DNA of 37,511 bases from Dehalococcoidia bacterium (GTDB lineage Bacteria > Chloroflexota > Dehalococcoidia > GIF9 > UBA5629), in contig JAFGHL010000071.1 of the NCBI GenBank assembly GCA_016930155.1, positions 1 to 37,511 of the forward strand, in the 5' to 3' direction. Of the stretch, positions 1 through 10,417 are shown piece by piece (position 1 is the first letter of the stretch; each line of letters starts with the position of its first letter). The notes beneath the pieces were generated by a model. The model did no database searches and was not told the origin of the DNA. It worked only from the letters and a program-made list of their open reading frames with translations. A program made the position numbers and the translations under genes.

Positions 1-1823
1 CAGACCAGCTCGCAACTGCTGCAGCGGGTGCACTTCTCCTGGTCGACGACCTTAATGCCTTTTTCATCACTGAAAATGGACTCAACCGGGCAGGCCAGAA
101 CGCAGTGGTCGCAGCCTTTCTCGCATTTGTCCGGGAGTATGTAATAAGCCGTCAATTCCTTGCAGACCCGGGCGGGACAGCGTTTTTCAGACACGTGCGC
201 CTCGTACTCGTCCCGAAAATAGCGCAGAGTGGTTAAAACTGGGTTGGGCGCCATTTTGCCGAAGCTGCACAGCGAGGCAGCTCTGATATCTTCAGCCAGT
301 ATCTGCAGGGTCTGCAGCCCCTCGGCGGTACCTTTTCCCGCGCAGATATCTTCGAGTATGCCCAGCATCTGATAGGTGCCGATCCGGCACTGCGTACACT
401 TTCCGCAGGACTCGCGGCAACTGAAGTCTATAAAAAACCTGGCGGTGTCCACCATGCAGTTTTCTTCATCCATAACGATAACGCCGCCCGATCCCATCAT
501 GGCCCCTGCCTCTTTGAGCGAATCAAAGTCGAGGGGCGTAGCCAGCATGCTCTGCGGGAGGCATCCGCCCGACGGTCCACCTATCTGCACTCCCTTGAAC
601 TGCTTCCCCAGCCTGATACCGCCGCCGATGTCGTTGATCAGGGTACCCAGCGTCGTCCCGGTCGCCACTTCCGCCAACCCAGTATTGACCAGTTTACCCG
701 CCAGAGCCAGCAGGACTGTGCCCGGGCTGGACTCGGCGCCTATGGAGGCAAACCACTTACCTCCATTTTTAACAATGAGAGGGATATAGGCGAGCGTCTT
801 GACATTATCCACCAGCGTAGGCCGGCCCCACAGTCCGCTCTCGGTGGGATAGGGAGGGCGGTGCTCCGGCCAAGAACGCCTACCCTCCATGGCAGCGATC
901 ATGGCCGTTTCCTCTCCCGAAACAAAGGCCCCCGCTCCCTTGACTATCTCTATATCAAAATCAAACCCGCTGTCCAGGACGTTCTTACCCAGCAGACCTT
1001 TGTCCTGCGCCTGTTTAAGGGCGATTTGCAGCCTCTCAATAGCCAGCGGGTACTCCTCCCGCACATAGATGAAGCCGTTGCCGGCGCCAACAGCATAACC
1101 GGCGATAGCCATTCCCTCGATAATGGCATGGGGGTCGCTCTCCAGCAGCACCCTATCCATGAAAGCGCCGGGGTCGCCCTCATCGGCATTGCAGATAACG
1201 TATTTGGGATTTTTACGGGATTTTCGGCAGGCCCTCCACTTAATGCCGGTGGGGAACCCCGCCCCACCGCGGCCGCGCAGCCCTGATGTCTCAACCTCGG
1301 CTATTATTGCCGGGGGTTTTTTCTTGAGCGACCGGGTCAGGCCGGCATAGCCGCCGCAGGCAATGTAATGCCCTATCTCCAGAGGGGAAGTGTAACCGCA
1401 GTTGCGCAGCAACAGCCGGGTTTCGTAATTGAAGCGCTCCATCTCTGGTATATAGACTGGCTCGCTGTCGCCGCCCGCCACCGTTCCCAATGCCAACTCC
1501 AGACAGGGGTCGTCCCCTTTCACATAGCCCTCGATAAGCTGCGGGACCATCTGCGGTGTGACATGATGGTAGCAGATGGGAAAATCACCGGGCTTCAGTA
1601 TGATGACCAGCGGCTCGTAGGAGCAAAGCCCCATGCACCCCACCTCCGAAACCCGGACGGGTATGTCCAGGCCCTCTATTCCGCTGCGCAAAGCGTCAAG
1701 GACGGCCAGGGCGCCAGCGGCGCGGCCGCAGGTAGCGGTCCCCACCAGAATGTGTATGAATTGATTGCCGTAGAGTACTTCCCAGTCCTTCCGGGCTACA
1801 GCATATATATCTTCAAAGGTCAT
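1..1823 (-). CDS. NADH-quinone oxidoreductase subunit F-like / HydB-HndC-like flavoprotein (partial, runs off left edge)
   Basis: Manual minus-strand translation from ATG at 1823 stays open to position 1: N-terminal thioredoxin-like Fe-S segment, NuoF core (TSGLRGRGGAGFPTGIKW, CNADEGDPGAFMDR, GAGAFVSGEETA), SCGKCTQCRIG cluster, C-terminal ferredoxin-like Cys motifs. Missing from the ORF track because it has no stop inside the window. Confidence 0.9.
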   Translation of the reverse strand, partial: MTFEDIYAVARKDWEVLYGNQFIHILVGTATCGRAAGALAVLDALRSGIEGLDIPVRVSEVGCMGLCSYEPLVIILKPGDFPICYHHVTPQMVPQLIEGYVKGDDPCLELALGTVAGGDSEPVYIPEMERFNYETRLLLRNCGYTSPLEIGHYIACGGYAGLTRSLKKKPPAIIAEVETSGLRGRGGAGFPTGIKWRACRKSRKNPKYVICNADEGDPGAFMDRVLLESDPHAIIEGMAIAGYAVGAGNGFIYVREEYPLAIERLQIALKQAQDKGLLGKNVLDSGFDFDIEIVKGAGAFVSGEETAMIAAMEGRRSWPEHRPPYPTESGLWGRPTLVDNVKTLAYIPLIVKNGGKWFASIGAESSPGTVLLALAGKLVNTGLAEVATGTTLGTLINDIGGGIRLGKQFKGVQIGGPSGGCLPQSMLATPLDFDSLKEAGAMMGSGGVIVMDEENCMVDTARFFIDFSCRESCGKCTQCRIGTYQMLGILEDICAGKGTAEGLQTLQILAEDIRAASLCSFGKMAPNPVLTTLRYFRDEYEAHVSEKRCPARVCKELTAYYILPDKCEKGCDHCVLACPVESIFSDEKGIKVVDQEKCTRCSSCELV

Positions 1824-2320
1824 GGCAGGGTGGAGGCACCCCCTTCTTTCTGCGGGGCGGCAGGCCTGATGGTCACCAGCACCTCCTCGATCTTGGGCGG
1901 CGTCATGTGCGGGTAAGCCTGCTCCCCGATGGTCACGACGGGGGCCAGGGCGCAGCAGCCGATGCAGGCCACCCTTTCCAGGCTGAACTCCCAGTCGGGC
2001 GTAGTGCCCCCGATCTTAATATCCAGCTCCCTGGCTATGGCCTCCAGCACCATCTGGCCGCCGGCCAGGTGGCAGGCCGTGCCCATGCAGACCTTGATGG
2101 GCCGTTTGCCGGGAGGGGTGAAACGGAACTGGTTATAGAAGGTGGCAACTCCCCAGACCGAGGCCGCGGGCATATCAAGGAATTTCGCCACATCCAGCAT
2201 GGCTTCCTGTGACAGGTATCCGTGCACAGCCTGGATATCCTGCAGGATATCTATCAGGCCACCGCGGCTGCGGCGGTCTTCGGTCAAAATAATGGATAGG
2301 TTGTTGCTTTCTTCGCTCAA
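1820..2320 (-). CDS. NADH-quinone oxidoreductase subunit E-like / HydC-HndA-like [2Fe-2S] protein
   Basis: 166 aa; CMGTACHLAGG and ACIGCCALAP ligand motifs; TTG start; 4-nt overlap with the downstream NuoF-like start. Confidence 0.88.
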   Translation of the reverse strand: MSEESNNLSIILTEDRRSRGGLIDILQDIQAVHGYLSQEAMLDVAKFLDMPAASVWGVATFYNQFRFTPPGKRPIKVCMGTACHLAGGQMVLEAIARELDIKIGGTTPDWEFSLERVACIGCCALAPVVTIGEQAYPHMTPPKIEEVLVTIRPAAPQKEGGASTLP

Positions 2321-2483
2321 TTCAAATGTCTCAAATCATCCATCGCAGGGACACAATTATTGCTACTATTCTATGTCAAAGCAGGGAATGAAGCCAGAGG
2401 TCAAGCTCCAAATAATATCGAAATCCAGATTAAACCGGAGAAATCTTTATACTCAGTACTTTAAACTTTTCGGGTTTATCCCG

Positions 2484-3851
2484 CTACTGGTTCCAGCTTT
2501 TTACCAGTTTGGGCAGGTAGCCCGGTATCTCGTTGGCATCGCCGGGGCCGACGATGATGTCCCATTCCGGTAACCCCTCCATAAGCTCGCCGCGTATGCG
2601 GGCGACCTTGCCGGGGATGACCAAGCGGCGATGGTTAACCTTGCCCTCTATGCCGCTCTTCTTAACAAAAGGAGCGATGGTGTCGCCGCTGAACTTGCCT
2701 GCCGCCCAAGCGGTGAGGATGCCCAACCCACCAGCCTCCTTCACCAGCAGCCAGGCCGGTACCTTGCTGGCCTCCACTTCCGAGGAGACCAGAAAGTAGG
2801 TCAGCGCCCAGTTGCTGGTTATCAGCACGGGCGACCCGGCATCCGGGTTGTTAACGGGATATATATTCTCCTCCATGGACATGGGTATGCGGGGATCGGT
2901 GTAAATATTCAGCCGCTGCGCTAGGACGGGCAGCAGCGTATGGGCGTCTATATGCGACAGCACAATGATGCCGGCGTACTTAATGATGAACATGGAGGCC
3001 ATTATGATCTCGCTCATACGGTCCTGCGTCATGAAGCAGGGGAAGCCAATGGTCGGGTAGCCCAGCGGCCGGAAGCTCTGCTTGAGTGAAGCACGCCGTA
3101 CCAGCGTCTGGTCCCGCACGGCCGACAGCAGGTCGCGGGAGCCGGGATCCATAACAATATTCTCAATGCCGTTCTCTTTCAGCTTCAAGGTGAGCAGCGC
3201 TAGGTCTTCCACGTTGTCCGCCTTTATCACAACCGTGGCCGGGTTGGTTTTCACAGCGGCAATTACCTTCTCGATACCGGCGGCTGTAACAGGATAGAGC
3301 GCCGGGTATCTGTCGGCACACATGCTGTGTGCAGCCAGTAAGGCGTCCGTGTCCTCCGCCATCATCAGCAGTGGGCAGTCCACCGCATTGCAGGCCTTTT
3401 TCACCAGGGCCTCATACTTAGAACGGTCGCCCGAGTTGAAGCGTACCGCAAGCATATCCGCTTTTAATGTCTTGCCGACCCAGGTGAACTGTAGCTCTTT
3501 CAGCTTACTGATCTTATCATCGATGTCAGCTTCCGGCTCATCATCCGAGACCATCACCGCTAGGGCTGGCTGGTGCACAAAGGTCTTCTCGTGGCGGTAC
3601 ATGACCTGCTCATCGCCAATCGTGAATGCCGTTGCGCCGGTACCGACGGTGACCGGCTTGACGGGGGGAGCCAGGGCGTCCGCCAGTTCGGCCTTCACTT
3701 CGGCTGCCAGGTACGGACACTTGTCCAGCGATACACCGCCTGACGCCAGCTTCATGGCAAAGGCAAAACAGGTCGGCAGGCCGCATTGCTTGCAGTTCTT
3801 TTTCCCGCCCTCGGGCAGCTTTTTAACAATATCAGTACCTTTAATTGCCAC
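2484..3851 (-). CDS. acsC: Corrinoid iron-sulfur protein large (gamma) subunit of CODH/ACS
   Basis: 455 aa; N-terminal CKQCGLPTCFAFAMKLASGGVSLDKCP cluster motif, TIM-barrel-like body; GTG start; overlaps the upstream small-subunit gene. Confidence 0.9.
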   Translation of the reverse strand: MAIKGTDIVKKLPEGGKKNCKQCGLPTCFAFAMKLASGGVSLDKCPYLAAEVKAELADALAPPVKPVTVGTGATAFTIGDEQVMYRHEKTFVHQPALAVMVSDDEPEADIDDKISKLKELQFTWVGKTLKADMLAVRFNSGDRSKYEALVKKACNAVDCPLLMMAEDTDALLAAHSMCADRYPALYPVTAAGIEKVIAAVKTNPATVVIKADNVEDLALLTLKLKENGIENIVMDPGSRDLLSAVRDQTLVRRASLKQSFRPLGYPTIGFPCFMTQDRMSEIIMASMFIIKYAGIIVLSHIDAHTLLPVLAQRLNIYTDPRIPMSMEENIYPVNNPDAGSPVLITSNWALTYFLVSSEVEASKVPAWLLVKEAGGLGILTAWAAGKFSGDTIAPFVKKSGIEGKVNHRRLVIPGKVARIRGELMEGLPEWDIIVGPGDANEIPGYLPKLVKSWNQ

Positions 3852-4758
3852 CGGCTGCTCCTTGCTGTATGGCCTCCCCGATCAGCCTGGCGCTTTCAGG
3901 GTGACGCAATACCAGTATGTTGGCCCCGGACAGCAGTAGGCTCATGGCGGTAACTCCTTCCCAGAGGATACCCTGCTCCCGGTCCGTCTTTGCCTGGCCT
4001 GTTTTCCAGCACTCAGCGCCCAGGTCGGCGATGACAGGCATCTGCATAGCCATATCGCCGAACATGATGCCCACGTGCTTGGTACGCTCGATAATAGTGA
4101 AGCTGTATTCCATGCCGTAGCCCGCCGCCGAAGCGAGCGGGTCGATGACAATCCTCTCCGGCGGGAGGTACTTTAACAGCTTCACGTTGAGTTCCTTTTC
4201 CAGGTTAATATCCATCGGGGTCTGGGCGATGATGCTGTGCCCGTTTTCGGCTACGGCCCGGGCGACGGCCTCATAGTTCTCTTTGACGGCAGGGCCCAGC
4301 AGCAGGTTTTCCCCCTTGCAGGCAACGGCCACAGCGGTCAGCACTTCGGCATCCTTGTTATCATCCCCGCAGCCGTAGACAATCAGGGGTACATCCAATT
4401 CGGCTGCTACCTGCTTAACCAGTTCAGCAGCCTGTTCTCCGCTTTTATTATCGCCCTGCGTGTCGGTGCTGCTGAGGCGCAGGCAGATAAGGTCGGCGCC
4501 ATTTTCCAGGCAGTGCTCCGCCCACTTGACAGGGTCGGAAACAACATCTTTGAACGGCTCCACCACCCACTTGGTCCAACTGGTAGCCGCATTGTCGTCG
4601 ACCTCCATCGCTATTAAGGGCCGATTGGCCGCAACGCCTTCAAAATAGTGAAACGGCAGGATGCTCTCGCCGCCTACCTTAACGGCCTTTTTCCCGGTTC
4701 CCAATATTACCTCTTTAACTTTTCCTGTGTACGTTTCTATCGGCACCTTGTATTCCAT
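3841..4758 (-). CDS. acsD: Corrinoid iron-sulfur protein small (delta) subunit of CODH/ACS
   Basis: 305 aa; CdhD/AcsD-like (IETYTGKVKEVILGTGKKAVKVGGES..., ERIVIDPLASAAGYGMEYSFTIIERTK); bacterial-like length. Confidence 0.9.
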   Translation of the reverse strand: MEYKVPIETYTGKVKEVILGTGKKAVKVGGESILPFHYFEGVAANRPLIAMEVDDNAATSWTKWVVEPFKDVVSDPVKWAEHCLENGADLICLRLSSTDTQGDNKSGEQAAELVKQVAAELDVPLIVYGCGDDNKDAEVLTAVAVACKGENLLLGPAVKENYEAVARAVAENGHSIIAQTPMDINLEKELNVKLLKYLPPERIVIDPLASAAGYGMEYSFTIIERTKHVGIMFGDMAMQMPVIADLGAECWKTGQAKTDREQGILWEGVTAMSLLLSGANILVLRHPESARLIGEAIQQGAAGGN

Positions 4759-4772
4759 CAGCCTTCCCTCAG

Positions 4773-5651
4773 CTAAGACTCCAACCAGGCATGCGAGTAC
4801 AGCGCATCGCCGTGCAATACCCGGGCTGTCTTAACGTAATCCTGTTCTTTCTCAGAAAGGCCGCGCAGGCTGACCTGTTCGCCATCCACGACACGGCAAA
4901 TGAGGTGCTTGATCTCCTGCAGGCCGCCTCGGTTCATCTCCATCAGCTCGGGGTCGAGGACATCGGCAATAGCCGAGTAAAGGCCGTCTCTTTCCATCAT
5001 CGTCAGGTAGGTGCGGTTCAGGATGCCGCGCAAAGGCCCGGGCGTCCCGTTCGATACATTGGATAAGCCGATGACCGATTTAACGCCGGGCAAAAGATCT
5101 GGCAGTATCTTGACGAACTCCAGGGCTTCACGGCATTGTTTCTGATCAGCACTGATGGGCAGGATAATAGGATCAATCCTGATGTCGTCCGGCTTGATGC
5201 CCAGTTCGGTGGCATAGCTGAACGTGTCCATGATGGCTTCGACCCGGGAGTCCACATCCGGCGGACAGCCGGCGTCCGTAATGACCGAGAGTATAATCTC
5301 GGCGTTATAAGTAATCGCCAGCGGCATCATTAATTCCTTGCTTTCTGCCTTTCCCGAAGCCGAATTGATTATCGGTCGCTTTTTAGCAACCTCCAGGGCC
5401 GCCTCCATGGCAACCGGGTTCATGGTATCGATGGACAACGGCAGGTCGGTAACCTCCTGCACGGTGTTGACCAGCCAGGCAGCAACTTCCCCGGGGTTCT
5501 GGCGGGCCGGGCCCATATTCAAATCAAGATAGTCGGCTCCAGACGCGGTTTGCGCTTTAGCCAGTTCCTGGATTACACCGGCGTCCCTGGCTTTGACGGC
5601 TTCGCTGATTGCTCTGGAAATTATATGTATGTTTTCGCCGATTAGATTCAT
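4773..5651 (-). CDS. acsE: Methyltetrahydrofolate:corrinoid Fe-S protein methyltransferase (pterin-binding)
   Basis: Start trimmed from 5693 to the MNLIGENIHI Met; pterin-binding motifs ADYLDLNMGPA, DTMNPVAMEAAL, NSASGK. Confidence 0.88.
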   Translation of the reverse strand: MNLIGENIHIISRAISEAVKARDAGVIQELAKAQTASGADYLDLNMGPARQNPGEVAAWLVNTVQEVTDLPLSIDTMNPVAMEAALEVAKKRPIINSASGKAESKELMMPLAITYNAEIILSVITDAGCPPDVDSRVEAIMDTFSYATELGIKPDDIRIDPIILPISADQKQCREALEFVKILPDLLPGVKSVIGLSNVSNGTPGPLRGILNRTYLTMMERDGLYSAIADVLDPELMEMNRGGLQEIKHLICRVVDGEQVSLRGLSEKEQDYVKTARVLHGDALYSHAWLES

Positions 5652-5746
5652 TGCCCGCCCAAAATATAAAAGGGTAGTGCAGAATTTTAACATCCGCTAT
5701 TCAGCATCTGCAAACGTTGCAGGTAAAACGAGGCGGTCGGATATCG

Positions 5747-5752
5747 TATAAT
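5747..5752 (+). promoter_or_regulatory. Candidate -10 element (TATAAT) for rnhA
   Basis: Exact TATAAT ending 6 nt before the ATG at 5759; no convincing -35. Confidence 0.4.
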
Positions 5753-5758
5753 TTAACC

Positions 5759-6220
5759 ATGCCCGAAAAAGAAAAAATTATTATTTACTGCGACGGGGCC
5801 TGCTCCAATAACCAGTTCAGAATCAACGCCGGTGGATGGGGAGCCATCCTCAGACATGGAAAAGCTGAAAAAGAAATTCGCGGGGGTGAATTGAATACCA
5901 CCAACCAGCGCATGGAGCTTACCGCTTGTATTCGCGCGCTGGAGCAGGTTAAATCGGCCTCTTACACAATCGATATCCATACGGACAGCGCCTATCTGGC
6001 AAATGCTATAAATAAGAAGTGGTACGTAAAGTGGCAGCGCAACGGCTGGCTGAACTACAATAAGAAACCTGTCGAAAACCGTGATCTGTGGGAGAGGCTG
6101 CTGGCGCTTTTATCTAACTATAAAGTAAACTTTATTAAGGTCGCCGGGCACTCGGGCGATGTGCTTAACGAACGTGCGGATGAGCTAGCTAGACGGGGCA
6201 TTGCGGAAATACGAAAATAG
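5759..6220 (+). CDS. rnhA: Ribonuclease HI
   Basis: IIYCDGACSNN, ELTACIRAL, HTDSAYL, VAGHSGDVLNERADELAR; internal ATG at 5759 preferred over 5717. Confidence 0.93.
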   Translation: MPEKEKIIIYCDGACSNNQFRINAGGWGAILRHGKAEKEIRGGELNTTNQRMELTACIRALEQVKSASYTIDIHTDSAYLANAINKKWYVKWQRNGWLNYNKKPVENRDLWERLLALLSNYKVNFIKVAGHSGDVLNERADELARRGIAEIRK

Positions 6221-6316: not shown

Positions 6317-8614
6317 ATGTCCACAGACTACCACGTTAAAAAGAAGAGGGAAGAGATTATCCGTGCTGAAGACAATTGGGAGCCGGTAGGCCATACCCCC
6401 ATGCCGGGTATACTGGACCTGCGGAACTGGGACATGCGCCTGCTCAGGACCTACCAGCCTCTATATGCCCCGCTGTGCGACCTGTGCTGTTTTTGCACCT
6501 ACGGCAAGTGTGACCTGACGGGAGATAAAAGGGGCGCCTGCGGTATAGACATATCAGCACAGCAGGCCAGGGTGGTGCTGATGGCCTGCTGCATGGGCAT
6601 GTCCGCCCATGGCGCACAAGCTAGGCGGGTGATTGAGTACGCTATCGAGAAATACGGAAAGAATCATAAGATCAATTTAGGCGATCAGATCAGCGTGGAA
6701 GCCCCCCATATCAGGACGGTGCTCGGGTTGAAACCCGAAACACTGGGCGATCTGGAGAAAGTCGTCACCTACCTGGAAGGGCAGCTTATTCATCTTGTCT
6801 CGTCGCTGCATACCGGTCAGGAAGGCTCTTGCCTGGATTTTGAGTCCAAAGCCCTGCACGTGTCAATGCTGGACCACGTCGCCATGGAAGCCAGCGAGAT
6901 CGCAGAGATTGTGGGTTTCAGCTACCCCACATCGGTAGCCGATACTCCTCTGGTCGAACTGGGTTGGGGGGCGGTGGACAGGACCAAGCCGGTCATTTTA
7001 CTGATAGGGAATAATCCGCTGGCCGGGGTGCGCATCGCAGATTATTTAAAGGAACACGGCCTGCAGGATAAGATAGAATTGGCAGGCATCTGCTCCACAG
7101 CCCACGGGGTAACGCGCCACGATGACCGTGCCAAAGTTGTCGGACCTCTTTCCCGCCAGCTCTTCTTCGTACGCTGCGGCATCGCTGACGTCATAGTGGC
7201 AGATGAGCAATGTGTCCGCACAGATATCAATATCGAGGCCGCTAAAGCGGGGGCGGCTTTTATCGCCACCAGCGACAAAGCCTGCTATGGGCTTGATGAT
7301 CTAACGGATAAAGATACCCGGTATATCATCGACGCAATGACAAAGGATGGTAAGCAGGCTCTGATACTGGATGCCGATAAAGCCGCTGAGGTAGCAGTAA
7401 AAGCTGCGCTGGAGATAGCCCCCAAACATGATAAGCCACTGTGCAAGGCTGAGGAAGTACCCGCACTGTGCAGAGACCACAAGCTGTGCAATACGTGCAG
7501 CCAGGTATGCCCCAACCTCCTAGAGGTGGGAGATGCCATTGAAGCGGCCCAGAATAATAATCTCCAGCCGCTGGTTGAGGTATTTAATAAATGCATCGGC
7601 TGCGGAAAATGCGAAGAGGCGTGTCCACGCCATGTGCCGATATTCAAGATTATGCAGGCCGCCGCCAGCTGGGAAAGCGGGAAGATACGGGTCGGTCGCG
7701 GGCCGGTCATGGACACCGAAATACGCAGGGGCGGAGCGCCACTTGTCCTAGGAACTATACCCGGCATAATAGCCCTCGTCGGCTGCTCCAATTTCCCCGA
7801 GGGGCCAGATGAGGTTGCCGAGATAGCCGAGGAGTTCGCCAGGAGAAAATACATTGTTGTGGTATCCGGCTGCGCTGCCATGGCTATTGGAATGAAGAAG
7901 GACAAAGACGGGAAGACCCTTTATGAAAAGTACCCGCCGGACTTGCTGCCGGGCGGCATTATTAACGTTGGCTCATGCACCTCCAGTGCTCATATCAGCG
8001 GAGCGGCCATCAAAATAGCCAATCTCTTCGCTGCCCTGCCGCTGCGAGGCAACTACGAGGTAATAGCCGACTATATTCTGAATAGAGTCGGCGTCTGTGG
8101 TCTGGCCTGGGGAGCTTATTCACAAAAGGCCGCCTCCATTGCCACCGGGTTTAACCGGCTGGGAGTGCCGGTCGTGCTAGGTCCGCACGCGGCTAAATAC
8201 AGAAGGCTATACTTGAGCCGCAAGGATGAGGACGACTGGACGGTGATGGACGGGAGGGAGAGAAAACTGGTCAATACGGGAGAGCCCTCTCCGGAACACC
8301 TGGCCATAGCTGTTGAATCCAAGGCAAAGGCGATGATCACCCTGGCCAAGCACTGCATTAGAAAAAACGATACGCCCCAGGGCCGTCAACTCAAGCTCAC
8401 ACACTACATCGCGCTGCACAAGCAGTACATGGGAATACTGCCGGACGACCTGCACCTTTTCGTCAGGAAGACCTCGGATATACCGATCTTCTTCAAAAAG
8501 GAAGTTCTGGCCTACTTGGAGAAATCCGGCTGGCAGGAGAAACAGCTGCTGACCCTGCCAACCATGATCGGCACTTACAAATCCGCTGTCTCCCTTGATT
8601 CGGTGATACGCTGA
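6317..8614 (+). CDS. cdhA: Archaeal-type CO dehydrogenase / ACDS complex alpha subunit
   Basis: 765 aa; CDLCCFCTYGKCDLTGDKRGACGID, CSTAHGVTRHDD, two 4Fe-4S motifs (CNTCSQVCP, CIGCGKCEEACP) inserted before the C-terminal C-cluster ligands, as in archaeal CdhA and unlike CooS/AcsA. Confidence 0.93.
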   Translation: MSTDYHVKKKREEIIRAEDNWEPVGHTPMPGILDLRNWDMRLLRTYQPLYAPLCDLCCFCTYGKCDLTGDKRGACGIDISAQQARVVLMACCMGMSAHGAQARRVIEYAIEKYGKNHKINLGDQISVEAPHIRTVLGLKPETLGDLEKVVTYLEGQLIHLVSSLHTGQEGSCLDFESKALHVSMLDHVAMEASEIAEIVGFSYPTSVADTPLVELGWGAVDRTKPVILLIGNNPLAGVRIADYLKEHGLQDKIELAGICSTAHGVTRHDDRAKVVGPLSRQLFFVRCGIADVIVADEQCVRTDINIEAAKAGAAFIATSDKACYGLDDLTDKDTRYIIDAMTKDGKQALILDADKAAEVAVKAALEIAPKHDKPLCKAEEVPALCRDHKLCNTCSQVCPNLLEVGDAIEAAQNNNLQPLVEVFNKCIGCGKCEEACPRHVPIFKIMQAAASWESGKIRVGRGPVMDTEIRRGGAPLVLGTIPGIIALVGCSNFPEGPDEVAEIAEEFARRKYIVVVSGCAAMAIGMKKDKDGKTLYEKYPPDLLPGGIINVGSCTSSAHISGAAIKIANLFAALPLRGNYEVIADYILNRVGVCGLAWGAYSQKAASIATGFNRLGVPVVLGPHAAKYRRLYLSRKDEDDWTVMDGRERKLVNTGEPSPEHLAIAVESKAKAMITLAKHCIRKNDTPQGRQLKLTHYIALHKQYMGILPDDLHLFVRKTSDIPIFFKKEVLAYLEKSGWQEKQLLTLPTMIGTYKSAVSLDSVIR

Positions 8615-8638
8615 TTATAAATAAGGATTAACTGTAAT

Positions 8639-9190
8639 ATGATAGGCAACCTGCCATACCACAGAGTGAACGTGCTGACAGGCACCAGAGCCGCCCGCAC
8701 GATCGCGGATGCCTCCGAGTATGCTCATCTGATAAAGAGCGCTGGCAGGCCACTGCTGGTAGTTGGGCCAGGGGCTCTGACCGGCACCCTGAACGGTAAA
8801 CCGGTCATAGAATATGCCCTAGAGATCGCCGGAATACTGGACATCCCGGTCTGCGCCACGGCACACACCAGGAAAAAACTGGCTGAACTGGGACTGGACC
8901 CGGCCAGTAGCTATGATATTATGGAGATAATCAACCATCTTAAAGACCCCGCTTGGCCTGGAACCAGGAAAGAAGGCAATCACGACCTAGTTATTTTCAT
9001 CGGCATACGGACCGATCTGGCCGGGCAGGCGCTCTCCACCCTGAAACACTATGCCAGGCACCTGCAGACCATGACTCTTAACAAGTATTACTTTCCTAAT
9101 GCTTCATATAGCCTGCCGAATATGAAAGACGGTACATGGAAGGTATTTATAGATACCCTGATAACGAACTTAAAGGAGAAAGCGGGATAA
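8639..9190 (+). CDS. cdhB: ACDS complex epsilon subunit (CdhB-like)
   Basis: 183 aa; RPLLVVGPGAL, DLVIFIGIRTDLAGQALSTLKHYA; between cdhA and cdhC. Confidence 0.85.
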   Translation: MIGNLPYHRVNVLTGTRAARTIADASEYAHLIKSAGRPLLVVGPGALTGTLNGKPVIEYALEIAGILDIPVCATAHTRKKLAELGLDPASSYDIMEIINHLKDPAWPGTRKEGNHDLVIFIGIRTDLAGQALSTLKHYARHLQTMTLNKYYFPNASYSLPNMKDGTWKVFIDTLITNLKEKAG

Positions 9191-10417
9191 ATGGAAGGTG
9201 TCTTTCCGGTAGATATAGGGCCCCAGTACGAGGGCGAAGTTATCAGAAAAGCCGACCTGTACGTTGAGCTGGGAGGGCCGAACGTAAGCGGGAAATTCGA
9301 ACTGCTGACGGTCAAAAGCGCCGACCAAGTCGAGAATGAGAAAATAGAAATCGTCGGGCCGGATATCCCGGACATGCAGGAAGGCGTGAGCTACCCGATA
9401 GGGCTGATAATCAGCGTAGCCGGTGAACGGCTGGAAAAGGATATGGAATCTGTCATGGAACGACGCATGCACCTCTATGGCAACTATATAGAGGGCTTCT
9501 ATCATATGAACCAGCGGGACGACGTGTGGATGAGGATCAGTAAAGAGGCCTATGGCAAAGGGCTCAGCTCCTTCGAAGAAATCGGCAAGATTTTAATGTT
9601 TTTCTACACTTCAGAGCTGGATGTCATCGAAAAGATCGCCATTTCCTTCATTACTGATGAAAAGAAAATTGCAGAGATGCTGCCGTCCGTACGCGAAATC
9701 TACAAAGACAGGGATGCCAGGGCCAGGGGACTGAAAGAGGAAGACGTTGAAGAATTTTATAGCTGCTCCCTCTGCCAGAGCTTCGCACCCACACACATCT
9801 GCATCGTCAGCCCGGAGCGTATAGCCAACTGCGGTGCCATCAGTTGGTTCGATGGCAAGGCAGCCTATAATCTGGATCCTGAAGGCCCCGTGCAAAAGGT
9901 CGTCAAAGGAGAATGCCTAGATCCGGTACGCGTAGAGTATTCAGGCTGCAACGAACTTGCCGCTGAGAAATCCATGGGCAGCTATACCCGGGTCTATCTG
10001 CACAGCGCCTTCGGCTTTCCTCATACTTCCTGCGGATGTTTCCAAGCTATATGTTTTTATATCCCGGAAGCGGATGCCTTCGGTATAGTGAACCGCGACT
10101 TCCCCGGAGAAACAGTCGTAGGAACTTCGTTTTCCACCATGGCCGGCGAAGCCAGCGGAGGGCAGCAGATCGAGGGTTATCTGGGACTGGCGCTGGAATA
10201 CCTGAGATCGCCCAAATTCCTGCAAGCGGACGGAGGCTGGCGCCGTGTCGTATGGATGCCGCAGGCGATAAAGGAGATGTATCGTGAAGCCTGTCCCACG
10301 GAGCTGTTCGAAAAAATCGCCAGCGAGAATAATGCTAAAAACATTGATGAGCTCATAGAGTTCCTCAACCGGGTAGGACACCCTTGGATCAAGGGTGATG
10401 TAGAACTTCCGACATAA
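9191..10417 (+). CDS. cdhC: Acetyl-CoA synthase, archaeal-type ACDS beta subunit (no AcsB N-terminal domain)
   Basis: 408 aa; A-cluster motifs YSCSLCQSFAPTHICIVSPERIANCGAISW and HTSCGCFQAICFYIPE; ATG abuts the cdhB stop. Confidence 0.93.
   Translation: MEGVFPVDIGPQYEGEVIRKADLYVELGGPNVSGKFELLTVKSADQVENEKIEIVGPDIPDMQEGVSYPIGLIISVAGERLEKDMESVMERRMHLYGNYIEGFYHMNQRDDVWMRISKEAYGKGLSSFEEIGKILMFFYTSELDVIEKIAISFITDEKKIAEMLPSVREIYKDRDARARGLKEEDVEEFYSCSLCQSFAPTHICIVSPERIANCGAISWFDGKAAYNLDPEGPVQKVVKGECLDPVRVEYSGCNELAAEKSMGSYTRVYLHSAFGFPHTSCGCFQAICFYIPEADAFGIVNRDFPGETVVGTSFSTMAGEASGGQQIEGYLGLALEYLRSPKFLQADGGWRRVVWMPQAIKEMYREACPTELFEKIASENNAKNIDELIEFLNRVGHPWIKGDVELPT

Follow-up and report, generated by a model that had tools for sequence, protein, structure and literature searches.

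A contig of 37,511 nucleotides from a Dehalococcoidia bacterium of sediment (JAFGHL010000071.1 of assembly GCA_016930155.1, our contig C114; the whole of it is called the window here) encodes an archaeal-type carbon monoxide dehydrogenase/acetyl-CoA synthase (CODH/ACS) module, cdhA-cdhB-cdhC, in which the alpha subunit, CdhA, has lost part of its CODH active site. We consider it likely that CdhA is being converted from a CO dehydrogenase to a non-catalytic partner of ACS, and that the window holds an intermediate of this change. The observations behind this reading, namely ligand loss, an intact A-cluster, a conserved ACS-facing surface and purifying selection, are all made at the level of sequence. 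The module comprises the following genes:

6317..8614, + strand: cdhA, CODH/ACS alpha subunit, C-cluster site incomplete in the ligand survey (765 amino acids (aa); TIGR00314, 1034 bits)
8639..9190, + strand: cdhB, epsilon subunit (183 aa; TIGR00315, 121.5 bits; relatives in PDB 1ytl and 3cf4)
9191..10417, + strand: cdhC, ACS beta subunit without an A1 domain (408 aa; TIGR00316, 577 bits; also placed by tree)

Each gene scores above the cut-off of its NCBIfam equivalog model, which is the basis of the assignment, and the three reading frames lie where the original prediction, made from the DNA alone, had put them, with a separate epsilon gene following cdhA. That prediction had also described CdhC as a 408-aa protein lacking the N-terminal domain of AcsB, and the alignment of CdhC to the AcsB model NF007078 is indeed confined to positions 302–705. 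Its picture of CdhA overlooked the CODH active site, where we find C-cluster ligands lost. The relevant features, read against the solved archaeal CdhA structures 8riu and 9c0q, are:

6476..6511, + strand: D-cluster motif CDLCCFCTYGKC, aa 54-65, type I, intact
6617..6628, + strand: altered His relay, with Q101 for one His (6617-6619) and R104 for another (6626-6628)
7010..7012, + strand: Asn232 in place of the C-cluster His (His266 in D. vulgaris CODH)
7094..7096, + strand: Ser260 in place of a C-cluster Cys (Cys302 in D. vulgaris CODH, Cys295 in CooS-II)
7478..7513, + strand: E-cluster motif without its first Cys, H388KLCNTCSQVCP399
7589..7627, + strand: F-cluster motif KCIGCGKCEEACP, aa 425-437, intact

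The C-cluster positions of the window thus read N,S,C,C,C,C, with four Cys kept from the complete set of one His and five Cys, and the relay reads H,Q,R, two of its three His being gone; the acid-base Lys is retained. In the D. vulgaris enzyme, His266 and Cys302 bind the unique iron of the C-cluster (PMC6168284). The nearest relative of the window, a Lake Pavin bin (G402, locus L254) with a CdhA that is 84% identical, and nearly all cdhB-bearing relatives show ligands H,C,C,C,C,C and relay H,H,H, and the residues at positions 101, 232 and 260 (H, H and C) are invariant across 75 distinct intact CdhAs. The window breaks 7 of the 136 columns that are fully invariant in these 75 proteins, and G402 breaks none. 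Since the choice of intact sequences had been based on the ligands themselves, a leave-one-out control covered all columns; here the window breaks 11 of the columns that do not vary among the other intact bacterial CdhAs, compared with a median of 0 and a maximum of 5 for the others. Given the loss of the unique-iron ligands and of two relay His, the window CdhA is probably unable to interconvert CO and CO2. As for the two extra 4Fe-4S motifs that had been predicted in CdhA, the F motif is intact and the E motif lacks its first Cys, which is likewise missing from intact CdhAs of the same family.

The change goes further in related genomes. CdhA retains none of the six C-cluster ligands at any observed position in 11 genomes, of which six belong to the nominal genus of the bin, two each to two other genera of the family, and one, UBA6803, to another family. 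Among these ligand-less forms are fen_1075 (L195), UBA6803 (L196), UBA1162 (L197) and STD1_5 (L270), as well as those of the Alinen, A14 and Lake Pavin bins (L264–L267, L269). The Lys motif SQKA has become GEEE (GEDE in one), with loss of the catalytic Lys, cdhB was found in none of the 11 genomes, and in two genera the insert carrying two clusters is missing as well (∼695 aa). Wherever both can be read in a locus, cdhB and an intact site occur together, the window being the exception. The AlphaFold2 (AF2) model of one ligand-less protein (G011) has a mean predicted local distance difference test (pLDDT) score of 74 and a template modeling (TM) score of 0.84 to 8riu, consistent with a retained fold. 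The ratio of nonsynonymous to synonymous substitution rates (dN/dS) of the ligand-less genes is 0.07–0.15, indicating purifying selection rather than decay, and their identity to intact CdhA is 42% in Rossmann fold 1 and 70% in Rossmann fold 2. In some of these operons, a cysteine-hydrolase-like gene of the isochorismatase type, recognized by weak matches, lies between acsD and acsE (L117:13082-13720, L119:13658-14341).

The ACS side of the complex shows the opposite pattern, as seen in these features of the window:

9764..9832, + strand: A-cluster Cys motif CSLCQSFAPTHICIVSPERIANC in cdhC, intact
10025..10045, + strand: A-cluster CGC motif (TSCGCFQ) in cdhC, intact
7718..7753, + strand: ACS-facing helix EIRRGGAPLVLG in cdhA, aa 468-479
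8027..8029, + strand: F571 in cdhA, equivalent to Phe601 of the M. thermophila CO alcove

All six A-cluster Cys positions are intact in CdhC of the window and of the ligand-less set. Helix residues R470, A474 and V477 correspond to Arg500, Leu504 and Val507 of M. thermophila CODH, position 504 being Ala in the window as it is in 8riu. In the M. thermophila complex, the alcove residues of CODH (Arg, Val and Phe) stand in for the A1 domain of ACS; these are conserved in all 11 ligand-less CdhAs, in the window, and in a further genome, G122, where CdhA is only 445 aa long. In this short form the N-terminal Fe-S segment, Rossmann fold 1 and the insert are cleanly absent, and the helices, Rossmann fold 2 and the C-terminal extension are retained. 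It aligns to positions 3–255 of the AcsB model, approximately the whole A1 domain, and the full-length ligand-less CdhAs align only from ∼78–85 onward. An AF2 model of the 445-aa protein was poor (pLDDT 52) and was not used. For the origin of the A1 domain of AcsB, Biester 2024 speculates on a duplication of CODH Rossmann fold 2.

Upstream of the module and divergent from it, at 3-5693 on the reverse strand, lies a bacterial-type acsE-acsD-acsC-nuoE-nuoF group:

4773..5693, - strand: acsE-like methyl-tetrahydrofolate:corrinoid protein methyltransferase (PRK07535, 222.7 bits, under the cut-off of 259)
3841..4758, - strand: acsD/cdhD, corrinoid Fe-S protein subunit (NF003376, 353.5 bits, cut-off 280)
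2484..3851, - strand: acsC/cdhE, corrinoid Fe-S protein subunit (NF003195, 549 bits; Fe-S motif intact)
1820..2320, - strand: nuoE-like electron-transfer subunit (model match)
3..1823, - strand: nuoF-like subunit with C-terminal ferredoxin part, running off the contig end

These observations suggest how the complex may work. The locus would encode a hybrid acetyl-CoA synthase complex in which CdhC holds the ACS A-cluster and AcsCDE provide the methyl-transfer side, with CdhA giving up its CO dehydrogenase activity. Rossmann fold 2 and the C-terminal extension of CdhA would dock CdhC and form the CO pocket over the A-cluster, and CdhA would be retained because a CdhC without an AcsB-type A1 domain needs it for both. 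In the sister genera the change appears complete, with no C-cluster ligand, no epsilon subunit and often no Fe-S insert, the ACS-facing surface being kept. ACS would then run without a CODH of its own, splitting acetyl-CoA into CO and a methyl group, the role suggested for ACS in Dehalococcoides; alternatively, it may build acetyl-CoA from outside CO.

In a relative-rate test, the CdhA branch of the window is faster than that of G402 (47 vs 14, p = 2.7e-5), and no other gene of the locus is significant. The trees of CdhC and of CdhA place the ligand-less forms in one clade with the window and G402 as its sister, a topology that the acsEDC-nuoEF tree does not reject (approximately unbiased (AU) test, p = 0.25). 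In the GyrA tree, the window and G402 are nested among the ligand-less lineages with moderate support. This nesting may reflect a regain of cdhABC by transfer, but the CdhC and CdhA trees do not point that way. The CdhA copy of G066 groups with the ligand-less forms although the G066 genome belongs to a different family, and on this basis the operon has probably moved between families.

Several observations weigh against a conversion of CdhA to a non-catalytic partner. The rate contrast of CdhA with the other locus genes pooled is modest (p = 0.03), and changes unique to the window CdhA also fall in Rossmann fold 2 (15 vs 2). The ligand-less genomes retain both nuoEF and a homologue of cooC; a loss of the Ni chaperone CooC was not found, since those searched have the homologue. 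The 445-aa form is known from one genome, and every genome involved appears to be a metagenome bin. Finally, the N,S pair of the window also defines the ACS-linked group A-6 of Inoue 2019, and could therefore be a functional variant. An ordinary active hybrid CODH/ACS, with Asn232 and Ser260 acting as ligands or supporting an altered but real CO chemistry, would agree with this occurrence of the pair in ACS-linked operons of clade A, with the retention of CdhB, of the D-, B- and F-cluster motifs and of the Lys, and with the low dN/dS of the otherwise conserved window CdhA against G402 (0.05–0.07, dS near saturation). We nevertheless think an active enzyme unlikely, as the His and Cys are invariant in the 75 intact CdhAs, relay His are lost as well, and the sister genera have discarded the whole site. 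In D. vulgaris CODH, exchanging the neighboring, non-ligand Cys301 for Ser alone left the enzyme inactive and Ni-free (PMC6168284), and for group A-6 itself we found no characterization.

The faster change on the window branch, which is spread across all domains, might instead mean that CdhA is merely decaying toward loss under relaxed selection, with no partner role. The intact 765-aa frame and the same low dN/dS argue otherwise, as do the ligand-less relatives, whose full-length genes show purifying selection and are best conserved in the part facing ACS, and we regard simple decay as improbable. An artefact of sequencing, assembly or binning is very improbable: the window does come from a metagenome bin (2.62 Mb, 98% complete, 7.95% contamination), and its CdhA is nearer to G402 than to the nominal genus mates of the bin, but several independent base changes fall at catalytic positions within a clean frame, and the ligand-less state recurs in 11 genomes. 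A contaminant contig is likewise unlikely: the one gyrA that the bin yielded is on the window contig, and its product places the contig with G402 (94%) in the clade. Conversion of CdhA to an ACS partner is the explanation that we favor.

The hybrid arrangement is itself already known, in line with the reservation that the original prediction made about its novelty. The CdhABC module is archaeal-type (clade A): CdhC falls on the archaeal-type side, separate from AcsB (100/100), and CdhA groups with archaeal and hybrid CdhA, separate from CooS, as the prediction expected. The prediction's archaeal acetyl-CoA decarbonylase/synthase (ACDS) module is accurate for CdhABC but not as a bare ACDS, since AcsEDC-NuoEF make this a hybrid complex; CdhABC occurs together with AcsC, AcsD and AcsE, the acsE-like gene being the one below its own cut-off. 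As to the bacterial flanks, fmt, together with gyrA, was named by model, and for gyrB and dnaA the reading frames so read are present at their places. Hybrids of archaeal CdhABC and bacterial AcsCDE have been described in NPL-UPA2 Unc8, D. audaxviator and Chloroflexi RBG_13_51_36 (Suzuki 2018; PMC6305446) and in Hakuba Actinobacteria (Merino 2020; PMC7325909), both articles citing Adam 2018. The arrangement is common in the Dehalococcoidia, where cdhB scores above its cut-off in 33 of the 396 genomes sampled, and is found in many Deltaproteobacteria. Both groups repeatedly show the order acsE-acsD-cdhA-cdhB-cdhC-acsC, in most cases with nuoE-nuoF after it, and the same order, with nuoEF not in view, is seen in Acetothermia and Unc8. 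The window and G402 deviate from it, with cdhABC reversed and acsEDC-nuoEF closed up; an RNase HI gene at 5717-6220, between acsE and cdhA, marks the break of the rearranged operon. The window shares archaeal-type CdhABC and bacterial-type AcsCDE with Unc8 and the other known hybrids, but its cdhABC has been separated from acsEDC-nuoEF and turned the other way round, and it lacks two of the six C-cluster ligands, all of which are present in Unc8 (L248). In intact operons of the family to which the window belongs, a conserved ∼231-aa reading frame lies between cdhA and cdhB (L096:9185-9883, L097:9178-9870); it has no counterpart in the window.

Comparison with other systems sets the window apart from each. 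The Methanosarcina ACDS (PDB 3cf4, 9c0q–9c0t) and CODH 8riu resemble it in the CdhA fold, the D-, B- and F-cluster motifs, the epsilon subunit, a CdhC without A1, and the alcove Arg, Val and Phe; the window differs in lacking the unique-iron His and Cys, two relay His and the C-terminal extension of CdhC, and in having AcsCDE as its methyl side. Incomplete clade-A sites are known from Inoue 2019 (PMC6344411), which lists the bacterial, ACS-linked groups A-4 (D,P,C,C,C,C) and A-6 (N,S,C,C,C,C). The window matches A-6 in this ligand pattern only: A-6 has no D-cluster Cys, Leu for the Lys and an F-cluster one Cys short, whereas the window has a type I D-cluster, the Lys and a complete F-cluster. 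Group A-4 has Arg for the Lys, and neither group is ligand-less. In other Dehalococcoidia, a second, divergent cluster at L284–L289 (G051, G100, G125, G114, G213 and G148) contains cdhB-like, cdhC-like and 828–855-aa cdhA-like genes, with tandem double cdhC/cdhA pairs in several genomes; its CdhA follows the A-4 pattern (D,P/A,C,C,C,C, Arg for Lys) and has lost the alcove Arg. In G229 and G263 (L124:8897-10204 and L125), an AcsB-type gene comprising the C-terminal half only, without an A1 domain, lies in an acsE-acsC-acsB'-acsD cluster without CODH, and its A-cluster CGC reads CEW.

No acsB was found in the genome, nor a second CdhC/AcsB match. The search for cooS that the original prediction proposed yielded one cooS-like gene (contig C101, L002/L281), frameshifted in this assembly and of the CODH-V kind. 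A rescue of function by a second CODH was rejected: in the window genome and its g1 and g7 kin, the cooS-like genes encode Glu at the Cys295 position and a Tyr close to the acid-base His, which is the D-1/CODH-V pattern; the numbering follows what we take to be the CooS-II reference sequence. CODHs of this pattern have been described as inactive with CO. Such clade D-1 proteins have the CODH fold with the Cys295 ligand lost, but they are CooS proteins that stand alone, carry Glu at the site and are not ACS partners. The Glu type recurs in g1, g7, G268 and G100, and no cooS match was obtained in the two g2 genomes. The window genome also encodes formyltetrahydrofolate synthetase (FTHFS) and MetF. 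In whole-genome searches with PF02219, the window, G402 and ligand-less f1 genomes have mostly high-scoring MetF (∼265–290 bits), and the intact f1 genomes have a distant type (∼140 bits). Dehalococcoides mccartyi, of the same class, has ACS and a corrinoid protein without CODH, and its AcsB is full-length. Dehalococcoides lacks metF, acsE and CODH, whereas the window keeps a CODH-shaped subunit, AcsE and MetF. For D. mccartyi, AcsB without CODH has been proposed to cleave acetyl-CoA, releasing CO (PMC7005905).

We found no report in the open-access literature of a ligand-less, epsilon-less CdhA or of an A1-like remnant. A later CODH survey discarded sequences with altered C-cluster Cys (PMC13240472), so genes of this kind are easily overlooked. 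It is an evenly balanced proposition that CdhA in this Dehalococcoidia branch has become a dedicated non-catalytic ACS subunit, shrunk in one lineage to a 445-aa A1-like protein, which would give an ACS whose partner is shaped like a CODH but has none of its activity, and an example of an A1-like domain arising from CODH. Some ligand-less CdhAs still score above the curated cdhA cut-off (827 vs 781 bits), so that annotation may credit their genomes with a complete carbonyl branch of the Wood-Ljungdahl pathway. The graded series, from intact CdhA through the half-lost site of the window and the ligand-less forms without epsilon to the 445-aa A1-like remnant, allows a test of which parts of CODH an ACS without an A1 domain needs.

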